This document shows positions 806 through 12,714 of a DNA stretch of 64,000 bases, piece after piece; within the stretch, counting starts at the first letter, position 1, and each line of letters starts with the position of its first letter. Source of the stretch: an uncultured Acidobacteriia bacterium. GTDB taxonomy: Bacteria; Acidobacteriota; Terriglobia; Bryobacterales; Bryobacteraceae. A program made the translations under genes and the position numbers. The notes under the pieces are model-generated. The model had not been told where the DNA came from and did not search any database. It saw nothing but the letters and a program-made list of their open reading frames with translations. The stretch lies in contig CAIXXM010000107.1 of assembly GCA_903923395.1 (NCBI GenBank), positions 1-64,000 on the forward strand, in the 5' to 3' direction.

Positions 806-1732
806 ATGTCAACTAACGCCATCTCCGTCCGCGGACTCAAGAAGTCCTACGGCGACGTCGAAGCCGTCAAAGGTATCGACTTCGAAGTGAAATCCGGCGA
901 AGTCTTCGGACTCCTCGGCCCCAACGGTGCCGGTAAAACCACCACCGTCGAAATCCTCGAAGGCATCCGCCAGCGCACCAGTGGCGTTGTCGAAGTCCTC
1001 GGCCTCGACCCCGACAAACAAAAGAACGCCCTCAAAGACCGCATCGGCGTCTGCCTGCAGGCCACCAACCTGCCCGATAAAATCCGCGTCAAGGAAGCGC
1101 TCGACCTCTTCGCCTCCTTCTACACCAAAAACATGGACGCCGACGGCCTCCTCAAACGCCTGCAACTCTGGGAAAAGAAGGACGCCTTCTTCTCCACTCT
1201 CTCCGGCGGCCAGAAACAGCGGCTCGCCATCGCCATGGGGCTCGTCAATGACCCCGCACTGCTCTTCCTCGATGAGCCCACTACTGGACTCGACCCCCAG
1301 GTGCGCCTCGAAATCCGTGACCTGCTCCTCTATCTACGCGGGGAACAACGCACCATCGTCATGACCACGCATTACATCGAAGAAGCCGAGAAGTTATGCG
1401 ACCGCGTCGCCATCGTCGATTCCGGCAGGATCATCGCCATCGGCACCCCCAAACAACTGCAGGATCAAAGCGCCAGCCAAAGCAGGATAGAAGCTGAAGT
1501 CGACCGCTCGCTCTCCGGCATGGCTCTCCCGGACTGGCCCTGCGCCGGCAAGATCACACTCACCGATGACGGCAAACATCTCGAAGTCCAAAGCTCCCAG
1601 CCCGCCCGCACCCTGGTCGAGATGGTCAAGTGGATCGACGCACAGGGCTTCGGCCTCGTCGATATCTCACTGCGCAAACCTACTCTCGAAGATGTCTTCA
1701 TTGAGCTGACCGGAAAGAAGTTGAGGGACTAA
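806..1732 (+). CDS. ABC transporter ATP-binding protein (ABC-2 exporter type)
   Basis: This 308-residue protein is the nucleotide-binding subunit of an exporter. Walker A is GPNGAGKTT at 38-46, the Q-loop glutamine is at 85, the signature LSGGQ at 132-136, Walker B plus catalytic Glu (LLFLDEP) at 152-158, and the switch His at 189. The final 80 residues form the extension common in DrrA/CcmA-like drug or polymer exporters. The gene is followed after four bases by the permease-amidohydrolase gene, so the two should form one transporter. ATG at 806 gives the complete domain; its ribosome binding site is weak. The substrate cannot be told from the sequence. Confidence 0.93.
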   Translation: MSTNAISVRGLKKSYGDVEAVKGIDFEVKSGEVFGLLGPNGAGKTTTVEILEGIRQRTSGVVEVLGLDPDKQKNALKDRIGVCLQATNLPDKIRVKEALDLFASFYTKNMDADGLLKRLQLWEKKDAFFSTLSGGQKQRLAIAMGLVNDPALLFLDEPTTGLDPQVRLEIRDLLLYLRGEQRTIVMTTHYIEEAEKLCDRVAIVDSGRIIAIGTPKQLQDQSASQSRIEAEVDRSLSGMALPDWPCAGKITLTDDGKHLEVQSSQPARTLVEMVKWIDAQGFGLVDISLRKPTLEDVFIELTGKKLRD

Positions 1733-1736
1733 TCCA

Positions 1737-3941
1737 ATGACCAAAGCCTATATCAGTTTGATCCGGAATGAGATACGTCTCGCATTCCGGCAGAAGATCG
1801 TGATCTTCTTCAACTACCTGATGCCCCTGCTGTTCTTCTTCATCTTCGCGCAGGCGAACCATGCCGAACAGGGCGGCGTCGCTCTCGAAATCGTCGCCAT
1901 GGTGACCGTGATCGGCATCCTTGGCAACGGCTTGTTCGGCGCGGGGATGCGAGCCGTCCAGGAGCGCGAAGCGAATATCCTCCGCCGCTTCAAAGTAACT
2001 CCCACCGGCCCGTTGCCCCTTCTGGTTGCCGCCGCAGTAACTGGCCTCGTCGTCTATCTGCCCTATGTGGCCCTGATGTTCTTCATCGCCCACGTGAACT
2101 ACGGCATGCCCATCCCCGATAACATCGTCACCATCTTTCTGTTCATCGCAGTGGGTGTAACTGCCATCCGCGCGATCGGCCTGATGGTTGCCGCCGTAGT
2201 CAACTCCGTGCAGGAAAGCGCCATCATCATCCAGGTCCTGTATATCGGCATGCTCTTCCTTAGCGGCGCATCCTTCCCCACAGGCATGTTTCCCGCCTGG
2301 CTGCTCACCGCCACCCAGTTCATCCCCGCCACCCATCTGGTTACCGGCCTGAAGGGCATGCTGGTAAGAAATGAATCACTGATGGATGTAAGAGTCCAGT
2401 TCTTCGCCCTGATCGCGACCGCCGTCATCGGCACCTTCCTCGCCGTCAAACTCTTCCGCTGGGAGAAAGAAGAAAAGATGCGGCCCGCCGCGAAGTTATG
2501 GATCCTCGCAGTCCTCATCCCGTTCGTCGCACTCGGCGCGTGGGATATGAAGTCAAAGGAAAACATAACCAAGAGCAAGATTCTGGAACGTGACTTGATG
2601 CGCTCCCGCACCCGGCTCTTCCGCAATGCCCGTATCATCATTGGGAACGGCAAAGTCATCGAAAACGGCGCAGTGCTCGTCAAAGGCGGCAGGATTGAAG
2701 CTATCTACGAAGGCAACATACCTGACCCGAAAGACCTCAAGGCCGATACCGTCGAGGCTGCCGGCAAAACCATCATGCCCGGCCTGGTGGATATGCACAT
2801 CCACCTCACAGCTCCCGGCGGCTTCATTGAGAACGCCAAGGATTATGACTACCAGAAAGGCATGGAGCACGCCCTCGCCGCCTACTTATACAGCGGCGTG
2901 ACGGCAGTGCGCAGTGTCGGTGACCCGGAAACCCAGATCCTGAAGATACGGGCCAGTTATAACTCGGGTGAAAAGCTAGGCACGGAGTTATTCTCCTGCG
3001 GACCGCTCTTCACCGCCGCGGGCGGCCACGGCACGGAGTACTTCCGCGGCATGCCGGATAACATCAAGCAATCCCTGCTGGCCGAGTTCACCCGGATTCC
3101 AAAGTCAGCTGAAGACGCAAAGAAGATGGTGGATGGCTTGAAGACAGACGGCGTCGATTGCATCAAAGGCGTGATGGAATCCGGCGCGGGCGGCGTTGTC
3201 TTCAACCGTCTGGACCCACTGCTCCTCAAAGCCGTTGGCGCCGAAGCAGCAGCCGTCGGACTGCCGATGACCGTGCACACAGGTGACACCCGCGACGTCA
3301 TGGACGCAGTGGAAGCACGCACCGCCGGTATCGAGCACGGCTCCTTCCAGGACCGTATCCCCGACGGACTCTTCCAAGCCATGGCCAAGGTTGGTATCTT
3401 TTATGACCCCACCCTGAGCGTCGCCGAAGCCTTCCCGCAGTTTGCCGCGGGCAACCTCGATCTGCTCAGCCGCTCACTGGTCATGCAATCCGCGCCGAAG
3501 GAGTTACTCGCCGGCACCAAACGCATGATCACTTCACCCGAAACCAAGGCCATTCGCAAATCCATCGGTGACTACCCCATCGATATGAATGTCGCCAAAG
3601 AGAACTTGCTCCACGCTCTGCGGAATGGTGTGCCGCTGGTCACTGGCAGTGATGCCGGTAACATGCTGGTCTTCCACGGCCCCACAGTGCAGCGCGAACT
3701 CCAACTCTGGGTGGAGGCCGGTGTGCCAACCGGTGTCGCCCTGCAGGCCGCAACCCTCAATGCCGCAAAGGCACTCCACGCAGAGAACCGCTTCGGCTCC
3801 ATCGAGAAAGGCAAGGAAGCAACGCTCCTGATGCTCGATGGCAACCCGCTCGAAAACATCAAGGCACTGGAGAACATCTCCTATGTCCTCTTCAAGGGGG
3901 AACACGTCGACCGGACGGAACTCTTCAAGCAGGATAAGTAA
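1737..3941 (+). CDS. ABC-2 permease fused to an amidohydrolase
   Basis: One uninterrupted 734-residue frame joins two proteins. Residues 1-245 are an ABC-2 type permease (hydrophobic segments near 22-39, 50-70, 95-118, 130-155, 163-190 and 222-240). After a charged stretch there is an additional hydrophobic segment at about 252-269. Residues 290-734 are an amidohydrolase of the imidazolonepropionase/prolidase-like group with a full metal set: His354 and His356 (MHIHL), Lys477 (CIKG), His514 (TVHTG), His534 (IEHGS) and Asp639 (GSDAG). ABC-2 permeases normally end in the cytoplasm. A seventh segment would place the hydrolase on the periplasmic side; that topology is inference. The gene follows its ATPase by four bases and ends at a strong terminator. 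Confidence 0.88.
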   Translation: MTKAYISLIRNEIRLAFRQKIVIFFNYLMPLLFFFIFAQANHAEQGGVALEIVAMVTVIGILGNGLFGAGMRAVQEREANILRRFKVTPTGPLPLLVAAAVTGLVVYLPYVALMFFIAHVNYGMPIPDNIVTIFLFIAVGVTAIRAIGLMVAAVVNSVQESAIIIQVLYIGMLFLSGASFPTGMFPAWLLTATQFIPATHLVTGLKGMLVRNESLMDVRVQFFALIATAVIGTFLAVKLFRWEKEEKMRPAAKLWILAVLIPFVALGAWDMKSKENITKSKILERDLMRSRTRLFRNARIIIGNGKVIENGAVLVKGGRIEAIYEGNIPDPKDLKADTVEAAGKTIMPGLVDMHIHLTAPGGFIENAKDYDYQKGMEHALAAYLYSGVTAVRSVGDPETQILKIRASYNSGEKLGTELFSCGPLFTAAGGHGTEYFRGMPDNIKQSLLAEFTRIPKSAEDAKKMVDGLKTDGVDCIKGVMESGAGGVVFNRLDPLLLKAVGAEAAAVGLPMTVHTGDTRDVMDAVEARTAGIEHGSFQDRIPDGLFQAMAKVGIFYDPTLSVAEAFPQFAAGNLDLLSRSLVMQSAPKELLAGTKRMITSPETKAIRKSIGDYPIDMNVAKENLLHALRNGVPLVTGSDAGNMLVFHGPTVQRELQLWVEAGVPTGVALQAATLNAAKALHAENRFGSIEKGKEATLLMLDGNPLENIKALENISYVLFKGEHVDRTELFKQDK

Positions 3942-4080: not shown

Positions 4081-6195
4081 ATGAAGTCGAAATGGATGCT
4101 TTGGACCGGCGGGTTCGTTCTGGTGTGTGCAGCCGGAGTGCTGGTTGGCCAGGAAAAAGAGGACCGCACGCTGTTATCGCATGAACAGATGACGGCCATT
4201 ATCAATGAGATCTCGGGCGAGCGCGCCATGCACCACGTGCTCGAACTGGTGCCCTACCAGTTCGTCCGGCCGCCGGCAGAGTATCAAGCCCACTTCCGCG
4301 AGGCGGAAATCATGGCGAAATTCGCCAGGGAATATGGCTTCAGCAACGTCGCCATCGAAGACTATCCCAACGGGCAAACCTATCAGCCTGTCGTCGGTGA
4401 ACTTTGGACCACCACGCCCAAAGCAACCAAGCTGTATGACATCCATGACATCCCGGAAGCTCTGGCCTCCACAAACGCCAATGGAGATATCAGCGCCGAA
4501 CTCGTCAGCGTCGGACAAGGCACCAACCTGGACTTCAAAGACAAAGACGTGAAAGGGAAATTCGTCCTCTCCCTGGCCCCCAGCGGCCTCAACCAGATCT
4601 ATAACAGGGCCGTCGAGTTCGGTGCCGTCGGCGTCATCGGCATCAGCGCCATCGGGGCCGGCGACCGCGCCACGGATTACATGAACGCCATCGTTTGGAC
4701 TACGGTAAACGCCAAGCCCAACACAGCGGCCTGGGCCGTCTCGCCGCGTTCCGCAAGAGAACTGGAAACCCTGCTGAACAGCGGCCAAAAGGTCACCATA
4801 CGGTCCGTCACAAAGACGGAGCAAGTCCCCAACAAGCAGGAAATCGTTCATGCCGAAATTCCCGGCGACGGCAGCACGACGCAGGAAGTCGCCATCGGCG
4901 GACACCTCTTTGAGGCTTACATTAAACAGGGCGCGAACGACGACAATTCGGGCTGCGCACTCACCCTGGAGATTGGCCGCGCCTACCTGAAGCTCATCGC
5001 CGAAGGCAAACTGCCCAGGCCCAAGAGAACAATCAACTTCAACTGGGTGCAGGAAATCAGCGGCACGAACGCCTGGTTCAAAGCCCATCCGGAGAAACAA
5101 AAGGTTCTGATCGGCGATCTGAACTTTGACATGGAAGGCATCCGCCTGACGCAGAGCCGCAGCTTCTGGCTGCTGCAGCGCACCCCGGATACCTTTCCCT
5201 CCTACCTCAATGACATCGCCCAGAGCGTGATGGAATACGTTGCTGAAATCTCGCGCGAACGCGTGCGCTACCGCCGCACTGGCTACGGTGCATCGCAGCC
5301 TGTGGAATCGCCCAATGGCAGCACCGATGCGTTCTATATCAAGATCGACAAGCACTACGGGTCCAGCGATCACGTCACCTACATGCAGCACGGCATTCCC
5401 GCGGTCATGTTCATCACCTGGCCCGATATGTGGTATCACTCCTCGCAGGACACGCCGGACAAACAGGACCCGACACAGTACAAGCGAGCAGGCGTGGTGG
5501 GTACCGGTGCTCTGGTGGCTCTTGCATCCGGCACTGATGAGATGGCCGCGCGCATTCTGAGCGAAAACATCGGCCGTGGCCTTTCGCGGATGGGCGAAGC
5601 GCACACCAAGGGCCTGGGTTACCTGGCGGATGCGCACAGTGCCGCCGAACTAGCGGATGCTTACAAGGAAGCCAGAATCGCCATCCTGCACCAGGCGGAA
5701 GTGGAGAAGGGCGTCGTCAAATCCGCCAATGTGCTTTGGACGGATGTCAGCAAGGGCGGCCAGAAAACTAGTGCTTTCGTCCCCCTCATCGACCAGCGGG
5801 CGACCGGTCTCTTGAACGAAGTGAAGGCGGCTTATCAACTGCAGGCCTTGCAACGGGGAGTCCAGGCACCGGAACCGGTCATGACGGCCCAGGAGAAGGA
5901 AGCAGCAAGTCTGATGGTTGAGGCAGTGGCACCTGCGGGCGGCGGTGGTGGCTTTGGCGGAGGCGGCGGAGGCGGCGGTTTTGGTGGAGGTGGTGGCCGT
6001 GCTGGTGCGGGTGGTCCGCAACTCCCCACGGAGATGACGGCCGAATTCCAGATCCTTCTGGGACAGCACAAGACGGTCCTGGAGATCCGGGATTTCCTCT
6101 CCGGCGAATTCACTCCACTGCCGTTGTCTGAGTTGATGACAGTCTTGCGCGCGCGGGAAACGGCGGGTACGGTGAAGCTGGTGCCGAAGAAGTAG
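4081..6195 (+). CDS. Secreted M28-family metallopeptidase with PA domain
   Basis: The 704-residue protein starts with a signal peptide (about 1-23). A PA-type domain lies near 130-230 and an M28 zinc peptidase core at about 265-470. Likely metal or catalytic positions are His275 (GGHLFE), Asp287/Asp288 (GANDDNSG), Glu325 (VQEISG), Asp350 (NFDME) and His453 (WYHSS). In classical M28 enzymes two adjacent Glu residues occur where this protein has Glu325-Ile326, so the second is lost. A glycine-rich stretch at about 620-645 separates a C-terminal tail. It probably degrades peptides outside the cytoplasm. It is transcribed alone, between two terminators. Confidence 0.85.
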   Translation: MKSKWMLWTGGFVLVCAAGVLVGQEKEDRTLLSHEQMTAIINEISGERAMHHVLELVPYQFVRPPAEYQAHFREAEIMAKFAREYGFSNVAIEDYPNGQTYQPVVGELWTTTPKATKLYDIHDIPEALASTNANGDISAELVSVGQGTNLDFKDKDVKGKFVLSLAPSGLNQIYNRAVEFGAVGVIGISAIGAGDRATDYMNAIVWTTVNAKPNTAAWAVSPRSARELETLLNSGQKVTIRSVTKTEQVPNKQEIVHAEIPGDGSTTQEVAIGGHLFEAYIKQGANDDNSGCALTLEIGRAYLKLIAEGKLPRPKRTINFNWVQEISGTNAWFKAHPEKQKVLIGDLNFDMEGIRLTQSRSFWLLQRTPDTFPSYLNDIAQSVMEYVAEISRERVRYRRTGYGASQPVESPNGSTDAFYIKIDKHYGSSDHVTYMQHGIPAVMFITWPDMWYHSSQDTPDKQDPTQYKRAGVVGTGALVALASGTDEMAARILSENIGRGLSRMGEAHTKGLGYLADAHSAAELADAYKEARIAILHQAEVEKGVVKSANVLWTDVSKGGQKTSAFVPLIDQRATGLLNEVKAAYQLQALQRGVQAPEPVMTAQEKEAASLMVEAVAPAGGGGGFGGGGGGGGFGGGGGRAGAGGPQLPTEMTAEFQILLGQHKTVLEIRDFLSGEFTPLPLSELMTVLRARETAGTVKLVPKK

Positions 6196-6257: not shown

Positions 6258-8195
6258 TTATTCGGTTGCTTTCGAGGCGATCTCCGCAGTTACCATCGCG
6301 AGAAACTCTTCGAAGGGAACCACACCCAGGTCAGCCTTGCGGCGGTGACGGACAGAGACCTTGCCCGCTTCCGCTTCGCGCCCGCCGATGACCAGCATGT
6401 ACGGAATCTGCTGGACCTGCGCCTCGCGGATCTTGAAGTTGACCTTCTCCGGCCGGGCGTCGAAGTGCACACGCACACCGGCGTCCTTCAACTTGTCGAC
6501 CACCGTCTGGGCATATTCGTTCTGCCCCGAAGTGATCGGGAGAACGGCAACCTGGACCGGTGCGAGCCAGGTCGGGAAAGCGCCTGCGTAGTGTTCCACC
6601 AGAATGCCGAAGAAGCGTTCCACCGAGCCGAACAGCGCGCGGTGCACCATGTAGGGCTGGTGCTTCTTGCCGTCTTCGCCGGTGTATTCGAGTTCGAAGC
6701 GCTTGGGCAGAGTGAAGTCGAATTGGACAGTGGAAAGCTGCCAGAGGCGGCCAATGGCATCGACAAGCTTCACGTCGATCTTGGGCCCGTAGAAAGCAGC
6801 TTCGTCAGGGATCACCGTGGCTTCGATACCCAGACGGTCACAGGCTTTGCGAAGCGCGCCTTCCGCCAGGTGCCACATTTCCGGTTCGCCATCGTATTTG
6901 CCGCTGGCTCCGTTATCCCAGGTGGAGATTTCGGCCTTGTATTGCGTAAAGCCGAACGTGTTCAGCGTGTCCTTGGCAAAGTCGAGACAGTTGACGATTT
7001 CGTCTTCGATCTGTGAAGGCATACAGAAGATGTGGGCATCATCCTGCGTGAAGCCGCGGACGCGCAGCAGACCGTGCATGGTGCCGGAGCGTTCATACCG
7101 GTAAACCGTGCCGAGCTCCCCAAGGCGCACCGGCAGATCGCGGTACGAGTGCTGGCCGTCCTTGTAGATCAGGATGTGGCCCGGGCAGTTCATGGGCTTG
7201 AGCTGGTATTCGGCATCGTCGAGTTCCATCACGGAGAACATGTTCTCCGAGTAGAAGTTCGCGTGACCGGAGGTCTTCCAGAGATCGCGCCGCATCACGT
7301 GCGGGGTGTAGACCAGGGAGTAGCCGCGCTTCAGATAGGCGTCGCGCATCCAGTCTTCCAACTGCTTGCGGATGATGCCGCCCTTGGGGTGGAAGAAGAT
7401 CAGACCGGGTCCGGCAAGTTCCTGGATGCTGAAGAGATCGAGTTCCTTGCCGATCTTGCGGTGGTCGCGCTTCTTGGCTTCCTCGAGCTTGTGCAGGTAG
7501 TCGTCGAGTTCCTTCTTGGTGAACCAGGCGGTGGCGTAAATCCGCTGCAGTTGCTTATTCTTTTCGTCGCCCTTCCAGTAAGCGCCGGCAACGGAGAGCA
7601 GCTTGTAAGCCTTGATTTTCGAAGTGTTGGGGACGTGCGGTCCGCGGCAGAAGTCGATGAAATCCGGGCCCAGCGTGTATTCGGTGAAGGGGTCGTCCGC
7701 CTTTTCCGTGATGAGTTCCACTTTCATGGGCTCATTCATGGCGGTGTATTTCTCGATACCCTCCTGCTTGCCGATGAGGCGGCGTTCGAAGGTCAGCGCC
7801 TTGGCCTGCAGCTCGTTCATCTTGGCTTCGATGCGCTCCAGGTCTTCCGGAGTGAAATGGGTGGGGCGGTCGAAGTCGTAGTAGAAGCCGTTCTCGATGG
7901 GCGGTCCGATCCCGAGCTTGGTCTCCGGAAAGAGTTCGAGCACGGCGGCAGCGCAGAGGTGCGCGGCGGAGTGGCGGTAGACTTCAAGCGCCTCAGGGTC
8001 TTTGGTGGTGAGAATCTGCAGGGTGCAGTCAGCTTCGAGAGGCCGGGTGAGGTCGTAGAGTTGACCGTCGACTTTGGCGACGATAGCGGCATCCGCGAGG
8101 CGCGGGGAGATCCCGGTGGCGATATCCAAGGCGCTGGTACCGGGCGCGACGGACTTTACACTGCCGTCCGGCAGTGTGACTTGAAGGCTGCTCAT
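6258..8195 (-). CDS. thrS: Threonyl-tRNA synthetase
   Basis: This 645-residue cytoplasmic enzyme charges tRNA-Thr with threonine using ATP. The order is typical: an N-terminal TGS domain (about 1-62), an editing domain with the HSAAH motif near residue 75-79, a class II catalytic core with the zinc-binding Cys in PMNCPGH, motif 2 around YRYERSGTMHGLLRVRGFTQDD, the zinc His in YMVHRALFGS, and a C-terminal anticodon-binding domain. Length matches the usual 640 or so. It is divergent from the gene at 8304 with about 108 bases between. I see no T-box leader there. Confidence 0.97.
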   Translation of the reverse strand: MSSLQVTLPDGSVKSVAPGTSALDIATGISPRLADAAIVAKVDGQLYDLTRPLEADCTLQILTTKDPEALEVYRHSAAHLCAAAVLELFPETKLGIGPPIENGFYYDFDRPTHFTPEDLERIEAKMNELQAKALTFERRLIGKQEGIEKYTAMNEPMKVELITEKADDPFTEYTLGPDFIDFCRGPHVPNTSKIKAYKLLSVAGAYWKGDEKNKQLQRIYATAWFTKKELDDYLHKLEEAKKRDHRKIGKELDLFSIQELAGPGLIFFHPKGGIIRKQLEDWMRDAYLKRGYSLVYTPHVMRRDLWKTSGHANFYSENMFSVMELDDAEYQLKPMNCPGHILIYKDGQHSYRDLPVRLGELGTVYRYERSGTMHGLLRVRGFTQDDAHIFCMPSQIEDEIVNCLDFAKDTLNTFGFTQYKAEISTWDNGASGKYDGEPEMWHLAEGALRKACDRLGIEATVIPDEAAFYGPKIDVKLVDAIGRLWQLSTVQFDFTLPKRFELEYTGEDGKKHQPYMVHRALFGSVERFFGILVEHYAGAFPTWLAPVQVAVLPITSGQNEYAQTVVDKLKDAGVRVHFDARPEKVNFKIREAQVQQIPYMLVIGGREAEAGKVSVRHRRKADLGVVPFEEFLAMVTAEIASKATE

Positions 8196-10168: not shown

Positions 10169-11944
10169 TCACTTCGGATGCTTGGCCAGTTTATGTGCTT
10201 TCAAATTGGCCTCGCCCAGCTGGCGTGTCGCTTCGGAGACGCCGCCCTCTGCATCCACCTTTGAGATGTCGACAGGCACCGGCGGGGGTCCGTCTTCGAT
10301 CACGACCATCGCGGCGCGCGGGCATCCCAAGTGATAGCCCTCGCCCGGCTCCACGGAAGCCACAACCGAATCGCCGCTCCCTGGTGCTACGGGAATCGCA
10401 GCGGCGGTATGGCCTGCAGCTATAGTGAGCGATTCCGCCGCACCGCCGATCCGGTAACGGACAACCAGCGCCGCATCCGCAGGGCCTGTCCGATGGACCA
10501 GAAGTTCGCCCGGACGGCCACCTTCGCGATAAGCGCGGGAAATGCCCGCCGATATGTAGACCAGCGGCTGGGAGCCGCCGCGGGGATCCGTGTTGTTGGC
10601 GTATTCCTCGATATTCGTGTAGCCATCCCCGTCTGTGTCCTGCATGGCCGAGTTCTTCGGCAGCGAGAACTGTTCCTGCCAATAGTCCGGGATGCCGTCG
10701 CCGTCACTGTCGGCGGGTGAAGGCAGGGAATGGTAGACCTGCCAGCGGCCAGCCGGGGAGATGTCGGTCTCAAAATTGATGACGGCTCCGGAGCCGTGGC
10801 GGACGTCATTGACGATTCGGAGGTCCACCGCGTCGCGTGCCGGCAGAGTTGCTCCCGCCTCCGCAAGCACCGTCTCGAAGGCCTCCAGCGCACTGGAAGT
10901 GGTCACGGCAGGTGTAAGTACAGGGGAATCGCTGCGCAAACCCTCGGCGGGTTTGCCTTTGTGCGCATAGCCGATGGCCTGCCAGTTATCGACTGAGCGG
11001 GTCGGGTCGCCGTGGAGCACATTGCCCGCGGCATACAGCCGGTGCGCTTCAGGACTCATGAAGGTGAAGATGGTATGCGCCGCCGGTCCACCCTCCACTC
11101 CCGTGGAAGGGCCGGGCTTGTAGTAGTTATTGACCAGGTTCAGCTCCACGGCTTCGTTGCCGGTGTGAGATGCAAACTCCTTCCAGTCATAGATCACATT
11201 GTTGCGGAAATCGAGGTGGGGTGGCGGGGAACCTCCGCCGGTAGTGCGCGGATTGCGCAGGCGGTTGTGAGCGTACAGCGAATGGTGGATGGTCATCGCG
11301 CCGCCGGGCGTCTGCGAGCCGAACAGCGACCCCTCCGAATGCCGGTTGGGGCTCTGGTTGGGGTTGAAGTAATCCAGTCCTTCCGCGGCAATTGAGTACT
11401 GTGCTGTGACGCGGTTGGCCACAGTAAGCGTGAGGTTTTCGTCGGTCGCCCAGGAGGTGGAGACGTGATCGAGGATCACGTTTTCGAGATCGCCTTTGAC
11501 GTTGATGGCGTCGCCCATATCGCCCAGAGTGTTGCTGCCGCGGCGGATGCGCAAGTGACGCACAATGACATTGGACGCTGCAATGCGCAGGGAACCGCCG
11601 CGAATGCAAATGCCTTCCCCGGGCGCGGTCTGGCCTTCAATGGTCAGATTCGGCTGCGCGATGACCAGGGCGCGCTTACTCTTCCCGCCCGTACCCAGAT
11701 CGATTGTGCCCGAGACCGTGAACACGATGATGCGATTGGGACGGCTGACAGCATCGGCAAAGCTGCCCGGGCCGCTTGTGTTCAAATTTGTGACGCGGTA
11801 CACGCTGCCCGCCCGGCCGCCGCTGGCCTGCGCGCCAGCACCCTCAGCACCTGGGAACGCCGGGATTTGGCCGAACAACGGCACTCCACAGAGCAGCAAC
11901 AGAAGCCACCAGCCGGTCAGGCTTGCTTTCCGCACGGAGTTCAC
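10169..11944 (-). CDS. Secreted pectate lyase-like beta-helix protein
   Basis: A 591-residue exported protein with a signal peptide (about 1-25). The beta-helix opens with PAFPGAEGAGAQASGGRAG and RIIVFTVSGTIDL, the pattern of bacterial pectate lyase (PL1-like) proteins, and runs to about residue 400. Two calcium-binding repeats follow (DSDGDGIPDYW and DTDGDGYTNIEEY). The last 110 residues resemble a Calx-beta domain. It probably cleaves pectin-type polyuronides by beta-elimination at the cell surface. It lies 26 bases from the SGNH esterase gene upstream in the same direction, and the two may be one operon. Confidence 0.85.
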   Translation of the reverse strand: MNSVRKASLTGWWLLLLLCGVPLFGQIPAFPGAEGAGAQASGGRAGSVYRVTNLNTSGPGSFADAVSRPNRIIVFTVSGTIDLGTGGKSKRALVIAQPNLTIEGQTAPGEGICIRGGSLRIAASNVIVRHLRIRRGSNTLGDMGDAINVKGDLENVILDHVSTSWATDENLTLTVANRVTAQYSIAAEGLDYFNPNQSPNRHSEGSLFGSQTPGGAMTIHHSLYAHNRLRNPRTTGGGSPPPHLDFRNNVIYDWKEFASHTGNEAVELNLVNNYYKPGPSTGVEGGPAAHTIFTFMSPEAHRLYAAGNVLHGDPTRSVDNWQAIGYAHKGKPAEGLRSDSPVLTPAVTTSSALEAFETVLAEAGATLPARDAVDLRIVNDVRHGSGAVINFETDISPAGRWQVYHSLPSPADSDGDGIPDYWQEQFSLPKNSAMQDTDGDGYTNIEEYANNTDPRGGSQPLVYISAGISRAYREGGRPGELLVHRTGPADAALVVRYRIGGAAESLTIAAGHTAAAIPVAPGSGDSVVASVEPGEGYHLGCPRAAMVVIEDGPPPVPVDISKVDAEGGVSEATRQLGEANLKAHKLAKHPK

Positions 11945-11970: not shown

Positions 11971-12714
11971 CTAGTTGCCCAGGGCCTGGGAAATCGCCTT
12001 TTCTGCCAGTGGCGCGATGGCTGCATAGCCGGCATCGTTGGGGTGCAGGCCGTCGGCGGTCCACTCTTTGCGCAGTGCCTTGGCGTCATCCAACATGGCG
12101 TCGTAGTAGTTCAGGTAGATGGCTCCAGTCTTTTCGCAGTAGGCCTTGATCCATTCATTCAAGGCCATGATCTTGGCCGGCGGGCGCTTCTCCGTCTGGT
12201 TGCGGTGGTAATCACAGACTGGCATGACGGAAGACAGGACCACCTTGATGCCATTGGCCGAAGCCAGTTCCGCCATGGACTGGAGGTTTTCTTCAATCGC
12301 CTCGAGCGTCATAGGGCCAGTGTTGCCCGCGATGTCATTCGTGCCCGCGAGGATGACGACGACTTTCGGTTTCAGGTCAATCACGTCCGGACGGAAGCGG
12401 ATGAGCATCTGGGGCGTCGTCTGGCCACTGATGCCGCGGCCGATGTAGGGCTTGCCGGGGAAGAACTGCTCGAACTTCTTGCCCCACGCATCCGTGATGG
12501 AATCGCCCATGAAGACCACGCGGTTCTCACTGGCAGCGGGCGGCTGCACTTTGGTGTTGGCAGCGCGGTAGCGGGCCAGATTGGGCCAGTCGGCGAGCGT
12601 CTTGGCGTAAGTGTCGAGCTGCTTCTGGAGCTTGGGAACATCGACCTTTTCGGGTACGGCGTCCTGGCCAAATGCGATGGCGGTCAAACACAGCGTGGTG
12701 AGAAAGAGTTTCAT
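11971..12714 (-). CDS. Secreted SGNH/GDSL hydrolase (probable carbohydrate esterase)
   Basis: A 247-residue protein with a signal peptide ending near AIAFGQ (1-17). SGNH blocks are visible: block I FMGDSITDAW with the nucleophile Ser, block II with Gly in GRGISGQT, block III AGTNDIAGN, and block V DGLHPND with Asp and His. Size and blocks fit acetylhydrolases that deacetylate sugars or polysaccharides. Sitting directly upstream of a pectate lyase-like gene, it plausibly removes acetyl groups from pectin; the substrate is inference. Confidence 0.88.
   Translation of the reverse strand: MKLFLTTLCLTAIAFGQDAVPEKVDVPKLQKQLDTYAKTLADWPNLARYRAANTKVQPPAASENRVVFMGDSITDAWGKKFEQFFPGKPYIGRGISGQTTPQMLIRFRPDVIDLKPKVVVILAGTNDIAGNTGPMTLEAIEENLQSMAELASANGIKVVLSSVMPVCDYHRNQTEKRPPAKIMALNEWIKAYCEKTGAIYLNYYDAMLDDAKALRKEWTADGLHPNDAGYAAIAPLAEKAISQALGN

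Follow-up and report, generated by a model that had tools for sequence, protein, structure and literature searches.

The core of an ABC-2 permease typically has six membrane helices and ends in the cytoplasm. In exporters of the DrrAB type (daunorubicin family, profiles TIGR01188 and TIGR01247), a separate ATPase is followed by such a core permease. Hydrolases tied to an exporter are known from ClbP, XcnG and ZmaM, which are membrane-anchored, periplasmic, prodrug-activating peptidases encoded within biosynthetic clusters; their hydrolase fold is that of a beta-lactamase-like serine peptidase. The known metallohydrolases of COG1228, among them the Xaa-Pro dipeptidase 2qs8, the Arg/Lys carboxypeptidase Cc2672 (3mtw), ochratoxinase (4c5y) and ADH3 (8ihq), are free-standing enzymes. 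A described fusion of a permease with an amidohydrolase was not found in the open-access literature, the only literature covered. Such a fusion is encoded within the window analysed here, a stretch of 64,000 nucleotides from an uncultured Acidobacteriia bacterium (contig CAIXXM010000107.1).

The fused gene, its ATPase partner and their distribution

The frame at 1737..3941 (+) runs uninterrupted from ATG to TAA, encodes 734 residues and starts 4 bp past the end of the gene for a DrrA-like ABC ATPase of 308 residues (806..1732, +). The latter was recognized as the partner of the fused permease by profiles, motifs and linkage: it matches ABC_tran (PF00005) with 108 bits and has a complete set of motifs (Walker A GPNGAGKT, signature LSGG, Walker B LLFLDEP and H-loop TTH). 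The initial annotation, made from the sequence alone, had described the larger frame as an ABC-2 permease joined to an amidohydrolase, and the fusion is real, with both Pfam domains well over their cut-offs: ABC2_membrane (PF01061; residues 6-207) scores 59 bits against a gathering score of 26.9, and Amidohydro_1 (PF01979; residues 345-722) scores 99 bits against 25. At the subfamily level, the ATPase reaches 266 bits with TIGR01188 (drrA; cut-off 312) and the permease 44 bits with TIGR01247 (cut-off 223); both genes being under the curated cut-offs, neither is assigned to the DrrAB daunorubicin exporters.

An AlphaFold2 model of the fused protein, built from a 47-row alignment (mean pLDDT 90.7, pTM 0.89), places six membrane helices (residues 20-40, 48-78, 93-122, 130-154, 158-175 and 219-239) in the permease core (residues 1-240; 1737..2456, +). 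The core is followed by the motif LFRWEKEEK (residues 239-247; 2451..2477, +), which would lie on the cytoplasmic side between helices 6 and 7 and was delimited in an alignment of 24 permeases. The hydrophobic segment that had been noted at about residues 252-269 corresponds to a predicted seventh helix (residues 250-273; 2484..2555, +), kinked at P262, after which the model continues with a basic linker helix (residues 275-289; 2559..2603, +), a beta-sandwich and a barrel. With seven helices predicted, and helix 7 present throughout the lineage, the protein departs from the six-helix topology typical of its class, and on the model it is a variant of the ABC-2 permeases rather than a canonical member. 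An internal start at M248, which would yield a free anchored enzyme, was considered and rejected, since many relatives have V, I, L, T or F there.

The amidohydrolase domain (2604..3938, +) was assigned from Pfam and the closest structures to the prolidase, Arg/Lys carboxypeptidase and ochratoxinase-like enzymes of COG1228. It belongs to the amidohydrolase superfamily by its profile score and by a binuclear site of the order HxH, K, H, H, D, all six residues of which had been named from the sequence and proved correct: the metal ligands His354 and His356 (2796..2804, +), the bridging Lys477 (3165..3167, +), the ligands His514 (3276..3278, +) and His534 (3336..3338, +), and the catalytic Asp639 (3651..3653, +). 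Among solved structures, 2qs8 is the closest in sequence (E 1e-31) as well as in fold (E 3.5e-26, with a TM-score of 0.83 over the target). The domain scores 157 bits with the Xaa-Pro dipeptidase equivalog NF051886 (NCBIfam; cut-off 500) and is not a member of it. These features suggest that the copy in the window is probably a working metallohydrolase acting on peptides or on amides resembling acyl-amino acids.

The full fusion was found without an internal stop in 13 other species of the same genus (60-67% identity) and, among 399 genomes of the class, mostly metagenome assemblies, in 31 genera of the family of the window (f1, apparently the Bryobacteraceae of the Acidobacteriota; 45-68% identity). 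One extra copy lies outside this family, in G121, a genome that is assigned to a different family and is 9% contaminated. A scan across phyla confirmed 253 loci, and all but two of the 80 listed carry acidobacterial names. The two exceptions, labelled Verrucomicrobia (L209) and Bacillota (L228), have permeases typical of the acidobacterial lineage and may come from mislabelled or contaminated assemblies.

Where flanking sequence is available, the ATPase gene almost always adjoins the fused permease. The remaining neighbours vary and are of a housekeeping kind (e.g., thrS, purH and an aldolase gene); no biosynthetic cluster for a cargo linked to the exporter pair was found among them. One of the few shared neighbours is thrS, located near the pair at 6258-8195 (-) of the window and adjoining it in several species of the genus (L033, L035, L037 and L047). 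A secreted-looking M28 peptidase encoded at 4081-6195 (+), which has an extended run rich in glycine, GGGGGFGGGGGGGGFGGGGG, around residues 630-650, was considered as a conserved partner and dismissed, as it was not found beside the fusion in relatives. Further along, the window encodes a secreted protein that matches pectate lyase and TSP3 weakly, with scores just under the cut-off (10169-11944, -), followed by a GDSL lipase-like gene (11971-12714).

Helix 7 and the domains that follow it

The seventh helix had been regarded as an addition that joins the two domains, a view that did not survive comparison with permeases of other families. Stand-alone permeases of about 270-310 residues in families f2, f7 and f11 carry both the FRW motif and helix 7 and end within about 50 residues of it. 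The permease alignment, whose 24 rows span six families and include stand-alone forms, extends through helix 7 across stand-alone and differently fused permeases; its invariant positions include F, R and W of the motif and, in the numbering of the window protein, K253, P262, F263 and G267. Within the genus of the window, one genome (G002) has lost the enzyme, and its permease ends just past helix 7. Because enzyme-free permeases of other families have the motif and the helix, the alignment indicates that helix 7 is part of the permease proper and predates the enzyme, rather than being a linker addition. Its derivation from the former signal peptide of a secreted enzyme was rejected on the same grounds. 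No separate amidohydrolase gene was detected beside the stand-alone permeases in the flanks examined. Three stand-alone permeases of f11 (L119, L122 and L123; genus g104) are nested in the fused clade of f1 in the permease tree, a placement that suggests either horizontal transfer followed by loss of the enzyme, or transfer of the permease alone.

The amidohydrolase is one of several domains found at this point. CIA30, a domain whose name derives from a mitochondrial complex I assembly factor, is carried by the same permease in f6 and f16, and in genus g99 of f6 the permease is followed by an amidohydrolase and then by CIA30. The g99 enzyme clusters with free-standing amidohydrolase-CIA30 proteins of f11, apart from the f1 fusions, and the AU test rejected a common origin for the amidohydrolase fusions of f1 and f6 (p = 2.8e-5); the trees thus point to at least two independent acquisitions of an enzyme at the helix-7 exit. 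CIA30 follows helix 7 in loci L131, L132, L135, L136 and L161-L168 of other Terriglobia families. In addition, more distant paralogues from the same genus as the window (L246-L249; L248, for example, on the minus strand) represent a second permease type with FRWD and helix 7, and carry a C-terminal domain of roughly 200 residues, which has the conserved sequence DPVQRVRN.LYVAAVPDVLE and no Pfam match. It is the third type of domain seen at this exit.

Loss of the catalytic site and the role of the fused domain

The metal site was compared among 78 fused proteins, 77 from f1 and one from G121. It is intact in 45, partial in three (one or two residues missing) and lost in the remaining 30, many of which are also 100-170 residues shorter within the barrel, half of it often having gone together with the site. 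Parsimony on the permease tree requires about 12 changes in the state of the site, at least seven of them forced by well-supported branches, and a single clade of lost-site proteins was rejected (p about 1e-76). Parsimony counts alone give no direction; since an intact site is common to the outside relatives, the changes are inferred to be losses, in about 12 independent events. Between sister species, dN/dS was 0.06-0.39 for lost-site domains, 0.06-0.12 for intact domains and 0.02-0.26 for the permease parts. These values reject the notion that the lost-site copies are decaying pseudogenes and indicate that their domains remain under purifying selection. For one such protein of 586 residues (L096), AlphaFold2 predicted a reduced but well-folded domain (pLDDT 85.2), whose fold continues to match amidohydrolases. 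A substitute, free-standing copy of the fused enzyme type was not found in the lost-site genomes checked. That purifying selection maintains the domain in 30 of 78 proteins without a metal site indicates that catalysis is not essential to the pump.

The reading preferred here, with a probability of roughly 0.6, is that of an ABC exporter of soil Acidobacteria with an accessory periplasmic domain that shapes export and, where the site is intact, also trims. The ATPase and permease would form a two-gene exporter in which the permease, judging from its class, is expected to dimerize, so that two periplasmic hydrolase domains would sit near the exit. The permease belongs to an acidobacterial ABC-2 lineage with helix 7 built in past the FRW motif, which would bring the C-terminus to the periplasmic side beside the exit of the pump. 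In the ancestor of f1, an amidohydrolase of the secreted type, from the prolidase/carboxypeptidase group of COG1228, would have become attached at this C-terminal exit. Lying over or beside the exit, the attached domain would shape export through docking, gating or the holding of cargo, a role proposed as common to the family on the ground that the domain persists where catalysis is gone; species with an intact site would also use it to trim an amide near the exit. Retention of the domain makes a cap, docking or regulatory role more likely for the family than cargo hydrolysis. A broader and more tentative extension, for which the odds are somewhat less than even, is that helix 7 evolved as a socket able to accept periplasmic domains in general, into which enzymes were plugged at least twice and repeatedly turned non-catalytic while regulating or capping export, the hydrolase being part of the transporter first and an enzyme second.

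The initial annotation had instead envisaged a hydrolase acting on the cargo of the pump. In its full form, this explanation holds that the fusion exists chiefly so that the enzyme can cut the molecule leaving the pump, in the manner of prodrug-activating systems. The intact metal site in 45 of the 78 proteins, that of the window included, is consistent with it, as are the strong purifying selection on intact domains and the ability of the enzyme family to cleave dipeptides and acyl-amino acids. Set against it are the dozen or so independent events in which the site disappeared but the domain stayed, the lack of a linked biosynthetic cluster at the loci and of a substitute enzyme in lost-site genomes, and the dropping of the enzyme by G002, which kept its permease with helix 7. 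Cargo processing is thereby weakened as a reading, and as the principal purpose of the fusion it is considered unlikely.

A further alternative is that the seven-helix permease simply offers a secreted enzyme a ready anchorage in the membrane, with no coupling to transport. Anchoring alone would agree with the secreted character of the relatives of both fused enzymes, with two independent fusions at the same exit and with the tolerated loss of the enzyme in G002, G076 and f11. It would leave unexplained, however, the purifying selection on catalytically dead domains across whole genera, and is judged quite improbable.

With one helix more than the six-helix core, the C-terminus of the permease would be outside, and the free-standing relatives of both enzymes appear, by eye, to have N-termini resembling those of exported proteins or lipoproteins: signal-peptide-like or lipoprotein-like sequences were seen in all ten f1-type relatives read (L024-L030 and L250-L252) and all five of the f6 type (L240-L244). 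Together, the helix count and the secreted appearance of these relatives make a periplasmic amidohydrolase domain very likely. The earlier proposal that helix 7 delivers the enzyme to the periplasm therefore stands as the likeliest topology, although the charge of the linker disagrees with it. The linker helix has 5.8 Lys/Arg per sequence in fused proteins versus 1.8 in unfused relatives. The value for fused proteins equals that of the cytoplasmic 6-7 loop; under the positive-inside rule, so basic a segment would not be expected in the periplasm. Helix 7 is also short, with a conserved proline inside, and its folding as a re-entrant hairpin is conceivable. These same features, the basic linker helix and the short, proline-containing helix 7, favour the remaining alternative, in which helix 7 is re-entrant or peripheral and a cytoplasmic amidohydrolase processes substrates ahead of export. 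The signal-peptide-like N-termini of the free-standing relatives argue against a cytoplasmic enzyme, as does the fusion at the same point of CIA30, a domain found in secreted proteins here; this alternative is accordingly regarded as very unlikely. Finally, an assembly error, missed stop or frameshift, for which the junction near position 2560 had been singled out, can be dismissed as having a negligible chance of being correct, because broken frames occur in a few relatives only (G001 and G358) and the orthologues of the 13 other species and 31 genera carry the same unbroken fusion, some in genomes of one to four contigs.

Significance and comparison with known systems

Each half of the protein belongs to a known family; what is new is their arrangement, the exchange of domains and the repeated loss of catalysis. 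Fusions are usually taken as proof of coupled activities. Here, close relatives provide a natural series of the permease alone, with an active enzyme, with a dead enzyme, with CIA30, and with both enzyme and CIA30, so that the contribution of a periplasmic domain to an ABC-2 exporter can be addressed directly. The dozen or so independent losses of catalysis in retained domains would also make the family a good example of pseudoenzymes that originate within transporters. For annotation, labelling such genes as plain amidohydrolases or as plain ABC permeases is misleading.

Among described systems, the DrrAB-type profiles are the best subfamily-level matches for the transporter parts of both genes, and the order of a separate ATPase and then an ABC-2 core permease is the same; unlike DrrAB, the permease of the window has a seventh helix and a C-terminal enzyme. 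The CIA30-bearing seven-helix permeases of other Terriglobia share with it the permease lineage, FRW, helix 7 and the exit point, but in these a jelly-roll CIA30 domain replaces or follows the amidohydrolase. The known COG1228 enzymes resemble the fused domain in sequence and structure, having the same fold and the common HxH...K...H...H...D site, whereas the enzyme of the window is fused to a permease and many of its relatives have lost the site. Compared with ClbP, XcnG and ZmaM, the hydrolase is a metallohydrolase and forms part of a stand-alone two-gene unit without a biosynthetic cluster; the likeness to these systems lies in a membrane-anchored hydrolase, here predicted to be periplasmic, that is associated with an exporter.
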